Part shown: positions 7,052-10,453 of the stretch, piece by piece
How the letters are laid out: the number at the start of each line of letters is the position of its first letter
Position numbering within the stretch: position 1 is the stretch's first letter
DNA from: Armatimonadota bacterium
GTDB lineage: Bacteria > Armatimonadota > Fimbriimonadia > Fimbriimonadales > Fimbriimonadaceae
Length of the DNA stretch: 64,000 bases
Reading direction: 5' to 3'
Assembly: GCA_016789105.1 (NCBI GenBank)
Contig: JAEURN010000007.1
Coordinates: 1-64,000 of the forward strand
Position numbers and translations under genes: made by a program
The notes under the pieces: model-generated
What the model was told of the DNA's origin: nothing
Database searches by the model: none
What the model saw: the letters and a program-made list of their open reading frames with translations, nothing else

Positions 7052-8455
7052 CTAAAAATCCGCCGAGCCCGGGGCCCGGTGGAACGGGATCACATCCCGG
7101 ATGTTCTTCATACCCGTCAGGTACATAATCAGCCGCTCGAAGCCAAGCCCGAAACCAGAATGCGGTGCGGATCCGTATTTCCGCAAATCCAGGTACCACC
7201 AATAGGCTTCCTTCGGCAACCCCATTTCGTCGATCCGGGCCTCCAACACGTCCAGCCGATCCTCGCGCTGAGAACCGCCGATCAACTCCCCAATCCGGGG
7301 GACAAGAACGTCCATGGCCCGGACGGTTTTGTTGTCGTCGTTGCGGTACATGTAAAACGCCTTGATGTCTTTGGGGTAATCGGTGACGATGGTCGGCCGG
7401 CCGATCTTCTTCTCCGTCAGCCACCGTTCATGCTCGGATTGCAGATCGCTGCCCCACTCCACAGGGAACTCAAAGTTTTCGCCGGAATTAACCAGCATAT
7501 CCACCGCCTCGGTGTAGGTCACCCGTTCAAAATTACTGGATGAGACATGGTGCAGCGTGTCCAAAAGCGACGGCTCGATCCGCTGGTTAAAGAACTCAAG
7601 GTCGGGGGCGCAATGGTCCAAAACGTCTTGGATAACTTCTTTCACAAATTCTTCGGCCAAATCCATGTCGCCGTGGATGTCGCAAAACGCCATCTCCGGC
7701 TCGATCATCCAAAACTCGCTGAGGTGCCGGACGCTATGGCTGTTTTCCGCCCGGAAAGTCGGCCCAAACGTGTAGCAGTTGGTCAATCCCAGGGCTTGGG
7801 TTTCGACGTTGAGCTGGCCCGAAACGGTGAGGAACGCCGGCTTTCCAAAAAAGTCTTCCGCCGGGTCGGTGTTCTTCAGGCGGTATTGGGCCCCATCGGG
7901 GCCGTGTTCGGCTTCCAGCAGGGTGCTGACGGCAAACATCGCCCCCGCCCCTTCACAGTCGCTGGCCGTGATGACCGGTGTGTGGATCCATTTGAACCCC
8001 CGGGACTGGAAAAACTTGTGAACCGCCCACGAGGCCTGGTTCCTCACCCGCTGGACTGCCCCAAAGGTGTTACCCCGCACCCGCAAATGGGCGATTTCCC
8101 GCAGGAATTCGAACGAAGCCCCTTTCTTCTGCATCGGGTAGCTGTTGGGGTCGGCCGTTCCGAACACGGTCACCGATTCGCCCTTGAGCTCAATCGCCTG
8201 GCCCGAGCCCGGGCTTTCGACCAACGTCCCCGAAAATTTGACGCAGGCACCGGTGGTGATTTGTTTCAAAACCTCTTCCGGAATCGCTCCCGATTCGACA
8301 ACGACCTGCAGATCTTGGAAGCAGGAGCCATCGTTCAATTGCACAAAACTCACGCCTTTGCTGTCTCGCCGCGTTTTGACCCACCCATAGGCATCGGCGG
8401 GCATGCCGGGAGCCATGCCGAAAAGGTCTTTGAGGTAACTGCGGCGGTAATCCAT
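7052..8455 (-). CDS. asnS: asparaginyl-tRNA synthetase
   Basis: A 467-residue class IIb aminoacyl-tRNA synthetase. An N-terminal OB-fold anticodon-binding domain (about 15-115) precedes the catalytic core; class II motif 2 is seen as FRAENSH and motif 3 as GFGLGFERL near the C-terminus. Length and the end (DVIPFHR) match AsnRS rather than AspRS. The open frame extends further upstream, but the ATG at 8455 gives the family N-terminus. On the minus strand TAAAAT lies 11 nt before this ATG with no ribosome site, suggesting a very short leader. It heads the operon with the ABC exporter. Confidence 0.93.
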
Positions 8456-8552
8456 GCGTTCGCGCGATTTTACTTGCGCCGACCGGAACAGACAGGGAAT
8501 GCGGGACGCGCCGCATCTGCCCGCTTCGATGGCGTAGGATAGGTGAAAGCCC
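8456..8552. promoter_or_regulatory. divergent promoter region asnS / proteasome-like gene
   Basis: For asnS, TAAAAT (plus-strand 8467-8472 as ATTTTA) lies 11 nt from the start codon. For the plus-strand gene, TAGGAT (8535-8540) is a weak -10 and AGGTGA (8541-8546) is the likely ribosome site. Confidence 0.35.
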
Positions 8553-9245
8553 ATGGTCACCCCGTACGATTGGCAAGAAAACATCGGCCACCGCGCCAAA
8601 TTTGTGGAATCGAGGCTGGAAGGCGGGATCCCCGTCGCGGCCGCCTCCATCCCCGATGGGATCCTTTTCGCCACATTTCGATACCAATCCACGAAAATCT
8701 TTGAGATTTACGACCGACTCGTCTTTTCAGCAATCGGCCAACAAAGCGATGTGGAATCCGTCCGCGTGGCGGCCATCGAATTTTGCCACCAAGAGGGGTA
8801 TCGGCGGAGTGAGGACGATGTGACCATCCAACGGGTGGCCACGCACCTCAGCCAGCCCATCAAGCGGGCCTTCGGGGATTTTTCCACCGCGCCGATGGTC
8901 GTTCGGTCCCTGTTTGCCGAGATCGCCGAATCCCCATCGGGAGACCGGTACTTTGCCATTGACTACGATGGAGACTATTCGGTCTATAAAAAATACTTTT
9001 TCCTTGCGGGAACCCGAGAAGCCGGTGAAACGATGGGGAAAACCGTCGAGGGCTTCGATTTTTCCTCGGCCAACCAAGATGACGCCTTGGCCCAGTTGAG
9101 GGAAGCTGTCACAATCGGAATGGATCCCGACGGGAGCCGGGCGGCGGCGGGTGAAATCCCCGAACTGACTTTTGAAGCGGCAATCATTCGCCGCGACCCC
9201 AAGTGGAACCGCAAATTCCTCCGCATTGCCGGACAAGCCGATTGA
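8553..9245 (+). CDS. proteasome alpha-type protein, orphan
   Basis: A 230-residue protein resembling the alpha subunit of the bacterial 20S proteasome. Landmarks in the actinobacterial order are IGHRAKFVE near the N-terminus, a hydrophobic strand [25 protein letters not shown] (the strand that in known alpha subunits reads K-I-x-E-LYDR-x-x-F-A-A-x-G), then [10 protein letters not shown], and FAIDYDGDY further on. It lacks the propeptide plus N-terminal threonine of beta subunits, as expected for a non-catalytic alpha ring. In known systems alpha rings gate a beta-subunit chamber fed by an ATPase. No beta subunit, ATPase, pafA, dop or Pup/UBact-like gene is visible in this window. Assignment is from pattern recognition; the fold is likely, the assembly is unproven. 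Confidence 0.75.
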
Positions 9246-9286: not shown

Positions 9287-10453
9287 ATGAAACGAACCGG
9301 GTTGATTGCGGCAGGCTTTTTGCTGGCCGGGTGTGCGGGAACGGGCAACTCCCCTTTGGATAACCAACCCGGAACCCGGTTCAACAGTGCCGGGGCCAGC
9401 GGGGGAACGGCAACCTCCACCCAGGAACTCAAGCCGGCTGCCGCCACGGATCCGGTTGCCCACGATGCCGATGATCCGGCCATTTGGGTGAACCGGCTCA
9501 ACCCGACCCAAAGCCTGATTCTGGGCACCGACAAAGTCGAATCGGTCGGCGCGCTTTACGCCTTCAATTTGGAAGGCAAAACCGTCCAAAAAATCGAAGG
9601 ATTGGATCGGCCCAACAATGTCGATGTCGGCTATGACCTCAGCCTAGGCGCGAAAACGGTTGACTTTGCCATCCTGACCGAGCGGAAAGCCGGGAAGCTG
9701 AGGATCTATTCGATCGACAACGAAACCGGGAAATTGGAAGACATCTCGGGCAACACCTCGATTTTAGGAGAAGAAACCGGGTCGGCCAAAGAACCAATGG
9801 GAATTGCCGTCTATCGTCGGGAAGATGGGGCACAATTTGCCATCGTCGCCCCCAAAACCGGCGGGAAAACGAACTACCTGGCCCAATACCGGCTTGTCCC
9901 GAATAATGGAAGGATCGATCTTAAATTAGTGCGGCGTTTTGGCGCATTCAGCGGAGTTGACAAAGACGGAAACGGCGAAATCGAAGCCATCTGCGTTGAC
10001 CAAAAGGCGGGGGTCGTGTATTACAGCGACGAACTGGCCGGCATCCGCAAATATTGGGCCGACCCTGAGCGCCCGGGCGCGGACAAGGAACTCGCTACAT
10101 TCGGGACTGAAGGGTACAAAGCCGACCGGGAAGGTCTCGCGCTGTATGAAACTTCGCCGCAAGATGGCTTTTTGCTCAGTGTCGACCAGGTCGAGAAGAA
10201 GTCGCGGGTGTTTGTCTACACCAGAGGCGGGGCAAACGAATCCGACCAACGCAACACCTTGGTTGCGGCATTCGAGACCCCGGCTGATACCACCGATGGC
10301 ATGGAGGCCACGAGTCGGGATCTGGGTGTGCGGTACCCACAAGGGATCCTTGTGATGATGGATAGCGGCAACAAGCGGTTCTTGATTTTTGACTGGCGCG
10401 ACATCGCCCCGCGTCTCATGAAGCGGCAGACTTCTGGCGCAGCCAACCGATGA
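9287..10453 (+). CDS. lipoprotein beta-propeller phytase
   Basis: A 388-residue protein of the beta-propeller phytase (BPP, 3-phytase) family, which releases phosphate from phytate with calcium. The signal peptide ends in a lipobox, FLLAGC with C16 as lipidation site, so it is membrane-anchored outside the cytoplasm. Family landmarks are HDADDPAIWVN (about 63-73), LDRPNNVDVGYD, the acidic DKDGNGEIEAICVD and YYSDELAGIRKY. The ATG at 9287 is chosen because it gives the signal peptide and follows a TATAAT at leaderless distance. Its 3' end overlaps the convergent mnmG by 38 nt. It probably scavenges organic phosphate. Confidence 0.88.
   Translation: MKRTGLIAAGFLLAGCAGTGNSPLDNQPGTRFNSAGASGGTATSTQELKPAAATDPVAHDADDPAIWVNRLNPTQSLILGTDKVESVGALYAFNLEGKTVQKIEGLDRPNNVDVGYDLSLGAKTVDFAILTERKAGKLRIYSIDNETGKLEDISGNTSILGEETGSAKEPMGIAVYRREDGAQFAIVAPKTGGKTNYLAQYRLVPNNGRIDLKLVRRFGAFSGVDKDGNGEIEAICVDQKAGVVYYSDELAGIRKYWADPERPGADKELATFGTEGYKADREGLALYETSPQDGFLLSVDQVEKKSRVFVYTRGGANESDQRNTLVAAFETPADTTDGMEATSRDLGVRYPQGILVMMDSGNKRFLIFDWRDIAPRLMKRQTSGAANR

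Follow-up and report, generated by a model that had tools for sequence, protein, structure and literature searches.

The window, the whole stretch of DNA that was analysed, comprises 64,000 nucleotides (contig C7, positions 1-64000) of a 2.75-Mb genome that is assembled in 11 contigs and is 99.96% complete. It contains a gene, prcA, whose predicted product is a proteasome subunit, and the gene and its immediate surroundings are organized as follows:

7052..8455, minus strand: asnS (asparaginyl-tRNA synthetase), divergent neighbour of prcA; an unrelated housekeeping gene that marks the present site of prcA in the genus
8456..8552, no strand: divergent intergenic region of 97 bp between asnS and prcA
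8553..9245, plus strand: prcA, predicted 20S proteasome alpha subunit of 230 aa, with an N-terminal helix at residues 4-23 and K48 within the motif K-I-x-E-x-YDR
9287..10453, plus strand: phytase-domain lipoprotein (PF02333), downstream neighbour of prcA and outside the proteasome system

The start codon of prcA is backed by the N-terminus M-x-TPYDWQE, which is conserved among relatives, and the motif AGGTG lies ~10 nt 5' of the ATG in the window sequence. The 97-bp intergenic region is the presumed site of prcA's own promoter and ribosome-binding site; a simple scan of 8456..8552 gave no match to a sigma-70-like promoter. A distant homologue of the phytase is also located 3' of prcA in another genus (L113).

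Identity of the prcA product

An earlier sequence-only reading had assigned this product to the alpha-type proteasome subunits, and the profile searches agree with that assignment. The 230-aa open reading frame scores 30.9 bits with PF00227 (Proteasome; E 2.7e-7), above the cut-off of 22.4. Among NCBI families it fits TIGR03691 best (20S_bact_alpha; E 5.5e-19), with 68.5 bits where the equivalog cut-off is 139. This equivalog cut-off is reached by the alpha subunit in none of 251 armatimonad genomes, many of which have an intact canonical operon, and it is therefore ill-suited to the phylum. The alpha landmark motifs named in the earlier reading, K-I-x-E-x-YDR and EGYxxSxxDV, are present, and a search of the PDB with a profile of PrcA homologues returned bacterial proteasome alpha chains only at E < 1e-6.

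The AlphaFold2 model of PrcA, built from 42 sequences, has a mean pLDDT of 90.4 and a pTM of 0.87, and predicts an Ntn sandwich with an N-terminal H0-type helix (residues 4-23) that matches PrcA over its full length in structural comparison. The top structural match is PrcA of Mycobacterium tuberculosis (Mtb; Z 26.4, rmsd 2.2 A over 205 residues), followed by human, Plasmodium and archaeal alpha subunits at Z ~22. The lysine K48 is invariant in all 42 homologues and aligns with Lys52 of Mtb PrcA, a position counted from the profile alignment; the lysine at this position binds the C-terminus of activators. The protein is classed as alpha rather than beta type because it has the N-terminal helix, lacks Thr1 and retains this invariant, aligned lysine. 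On profile and model evidence, 8553-9245 encodes a true PrcA, the alpha subunit of a bacterial 20S proteasome.

It is exceedingly unlikely that the product belongs to another Ntn-hydrolase family, such as HslV or Anbu. The modest Pfam score of the single sequence would fit such an assignment, but a better match to another family was looked for and no other family matches better: the best HMM is that of the bacterial proteasome alpha subunit, in structural comparison bacterial PrcA chains come out well ahead of those from any other lineage, and the first strand starts without a nucleophile Thr, Ser or Cys.

The prcA gene is under strong purifying selection, with dN/dS values of 0.015 and 0.026 in two unsaturated genus pairs, compared to 0.010 and 0.016 for asnS. 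These values bear on the reading that prcA is a decaying relic, left after the proteasome turned into a beta-only, HslV-like particle, which we regard as extremely improbable. Fimbriimonadaceae alpha subunits are shorter at the C-terminus than those of other armatimonads and have diverged strongly, as a relic might, but dN/dS of ~0.02 resembles that of asnS, a full alpha fold is predicted with confidence, and alpha is retained in all but one of the beta-bearing Fimbriimonadaceae genomes.

Partner genes elsewhere in the genome

The sequence-only reading noted that genes for a beta subunit, ATPase, PafA/Dop or Pup/UBact are absent from the vicinity of prcA, and the whole window is indeed free of them. 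It also considered prcA an orphan, a description that is wrong at the genome level. Whole-genome searches placed the partners on contigs C8 and C3:

C8:270836-271486: prcB, the beta subunit, last gene of a Dop-UBact-PrcB row with 4-bp overlaps
C8, in the Dop-UBact-PrcB row: UBact tag of 60 aa ending in RQRSGE (PF20513, E 8e-23, 80.3 bits)
C8, in the Dop-UBact-PrcB row: Dop, one of two PF03136 (Pup-ligase-fold) genes
C3:33313-34677: PafA, the other PF03136 gene
C8:188854-190329: ARC/Mpa-type ATPase with AAA, Prot_ATP_ID_OB_N and Prot_ATP_ID_OB_C domains

The two Pup-ligase-fold genes were told apart as PafA and Dop by features of their sequences and by their position relative to the operon. Residues T1, D17 and K33 are present in the beta subunit, as in every one of the 41 beta sequences examined, and the tag ends in GE, in keeping with the G-[EQ] ending of UBact/Pup tags. 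No Bpa/PafE activator (PF10759) was found in the genome. The gene set for a UBact-directed proteasome is complete in this genome and spread over four loci.

The whole-genome profile search with PF00227 found exactly two genes, prcA and the one beta subunit. HslV and Anbu were ruled out as candidates, as this profile finds just alpha and beta here. A second full proteasome cluster, which would have made prcA a divergent paralogue, was also looked for, and a second alpha gene is absent from the genome.

In this genome the open reading frame immediately upstream of dop (L014:9179-10522, minus strand) is lipoprotein-like and has no Pfam match. A lipoprotein-like frame was seen at the same position in 20/20 other Fimbriimonadaceae loci examined and is not found next to dop outside the family.

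Separation of prcA from prcB across the phylum

We surveyed 251 Armatimonadota genomes for alpha, beta, PafA/Dop and ARC, which were detected in 137, 139, 148 and 133 genomes, respectively. Alpha and beta coordinates were compared genome by genome, by reading of tables. The two genes are adjacent in none of the 56 Fimbriimonadaceae genomes that have both, and are found together in 80 of the 81 other armatimonads with both genes. For the remaining families of the order, alpha and beta lie within ~1.3 kb of each other in 13/13 genomes, and elsewhere in the phylum in 67/68, the exception (G010) having them on different contigs. The separation in Fimbriimonadaceae is not an artefact of contig breaks, since 16 of the 56 genomes have alpha and beta on one contig at distances of 18 kb to 1.9 Mb. 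Named matches assign the family to Fimbriimonadaceae, the closest of them being a labscale-reactor MAG and Armatimonadetes bacterium Uphvl-Ar1.

Gene order was reconstructed for 60 loci. Most loci of other classes have the order ARC-Dop-UBact-PrcB-PrcA-PafA, and most loci of the sister families have Dop-UBact followed by PrcB-PrcA, with or without PafA, the ATPase gene being already apart at the order level. All 20 Fimbriimonadaceae members examined, and the genome studied here, have Dop-UBact-PrcB with no PrcA. The ancestral order is thus ARC-Dop-UBact-PrcB-PrcA-PafA, kept in other classes, and Dop-UBact-PrcB-PrcA in the sister families, with alpha and beta adjacent in both. We infer that the simplest history is a single departure of prcA from the dop-ubact-prcB-prcA operon, close to the base of Fimbriimonadaceae. 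The gene has changed neighbours again after leaving the operon. In 7/7 sampled genus members and in G061 it stands divergently to asnS and a gene for an MsbA-like ABC transporter. Several other genera have it close to rplK and galT, and in the rest its surroundings are unshared. No conserved functional neighbour of prcA was found within the Fimbriimonadaceae loci examined.

Several further observations were made in the survey. Alpha, beta, Dop, PafA and ARC are all missing from two reduced Fimbriimonadaceae genomes of 1.5 Mb (G177 and G181, genus g15), a loss of the whole system. In one genome of the family that is 92% complete (G241, genus g25), beta, ARC and two genes of the Pup-ligase fold were found with no detectable alpha, which may reflect an assembly gap or a true loss. 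In some armatimonads (loci L046, L047 and L130; genomes G013 and G079) two tandem UBact-like reading frames are located 5' of prcB; the N-terminal half of the second is divergent, and one ends in RPGQ and the other in RSGQ.

The sequence-only reading had offered two accounts of an isolated alpha gene, a dispersed proteasome and a self-assembling ring with another role. The first is well supported by the partners being present elsewhere in the genome and by the co-occurrence and ancestral adjacency of alpha and beta in the phylum; we found no support for the second. We judge it very unlikely that PrcA assembles into rings of alpha alone that serve another, non-proteolytic purpose, its exit from the operon having been a release from beta. 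Such a role would be compatible with the unlinking of prcA from prcB in the whole family and with a dN that is higher for alpha than for beta in one of the two genus pairs free of saturation. However, alpha is present only where beta is, and both are gone from the two 1.5-Mb genomes; the activator-pocket lysine is invariant; and there is one alpha gene only, so that the proteasome would otherwise be without a gate ring. Alpha and beta patristic distances also correlate (r = 0.90), which is supporting rather than decisive evidence as shared ancestry contributes to the correlation.

Proposed role and comparison with known systems

These results make it very probable that PrcA is the alpha subunit of a working UBact-directed 20S proteasome and that its gene was moved out of the operon in the ancestor of Fimbriimonadaceae. 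Each outer ring would consist of seven PrcA copies and gate access to the two inner PrcB rings. PafA would join UBact to lysines of target proteins, and Dop would take it off again. The ARC/Mpa-type ATPase would dock on the alpha ring by way of the pocket that surrounds Lys48 and unfold the tagged proteins, which the Thr1 sites of PrcB would then cut. With prcA outside the operon, presumably under a promoter separate from that of prcB, the 1:1 supply of alpha and beta in Fimbriimonadaceae must be set by two separately transcribed loci and reached without co-transcription.

Docking is a less secure step here than it is in mycobacteria, because the armatimonad ATPase tail has no GQYL. Mpa needs its C-terminal GQYL for gate opening (PMC8142254). 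Neither GQYL nor an HbYX docking motif occurs in any of the 27 distinct armatimonad ARC tails examined. The penultimate residue is V or I in all 27, a phylum-wide trait that is also seen where the operon is intact. The ATPase of the genome studied here (L006:1369-3027) has the V/I type of tail despite the kept alpha pocket lysine. We offer as a speculative and rather unlikely proposal that the unlinking of prcA from prcB has allowed Fimbriimonadaceae to control the supply of gate rings independently, so that the proteasome could be regulated by the amount of alpha, and that the armatimonad ATPase achieves gate opening through its V/I tail, using a different docking chemistry on the same lysine pocket.

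The apparent orphan is resolved as part of a bacterial system in which a complete set of genes for a UBact-directed proteasome is spread over four loci, and which annotation from gene neighbourhood only would label incomplete. The gene itself is ordinary in kind, and the clade-wide break of the operon is mildly interesting as a stepwise break-up in an obligate hetero-oligomer, with the ATPase gene out at the order level and then prcA at the family level.

Armatimonads were reportedly included in the original UBact paper; armatimonad proteasomes and UBact have already been described, and UBact has a Pfam family. Among bacterial proteasomes there is a Gram-negative subcluster to which the alpha and beta subunits of armatimonads have been assigned (PMC5666114), and Dop/PafA homologues have sporadically been reported from Armatimonadetes (PMC7947786). 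On armatimonad proteasome gene order, UBact and Fimbriimonas, the open-access literature provided general statements only, and we found in it no earlier report of a family-wide separation of prcB and prcA, most subscription papers being outside this scope.

The PrcA proteins of Mtb and Rhodococcus (PDB 5trg, 3h6f, 1q5q) share the predicted fold over near full length (Z 25-26, rmsd ~2.2 A), the order of motifs and the pocket lysine (K48 here, K52 in Mtb). Identity to them is ~24-25%, and, in contrast to these systems, the gene described here stands apart from prcB, the ATPase partner has no GQYL tail, and the tag is UBact rather than Pup. The armatimonad, nitrospiral and verrucomicrobial proteasomes (PMC5666114) have the same kind of alpha and beta subunits and the same gene set, those of armatimonads belonging also to the same phylum; in Fimbriimonadaceae, however, prcA, pafA and arc lie apart from prcB, whereas other members of the phylum mostly have these genes in a cluster. 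The actinobacterial pupylation locus has components in common with this system, and the ancestral armatimonad order is likewise dop - tag - prcB - prcA - pafA. Gene order in that locus has been reviewed as rigidly conserved (PMC3511204), but in Fimbriimonadaceae prcA has left it.
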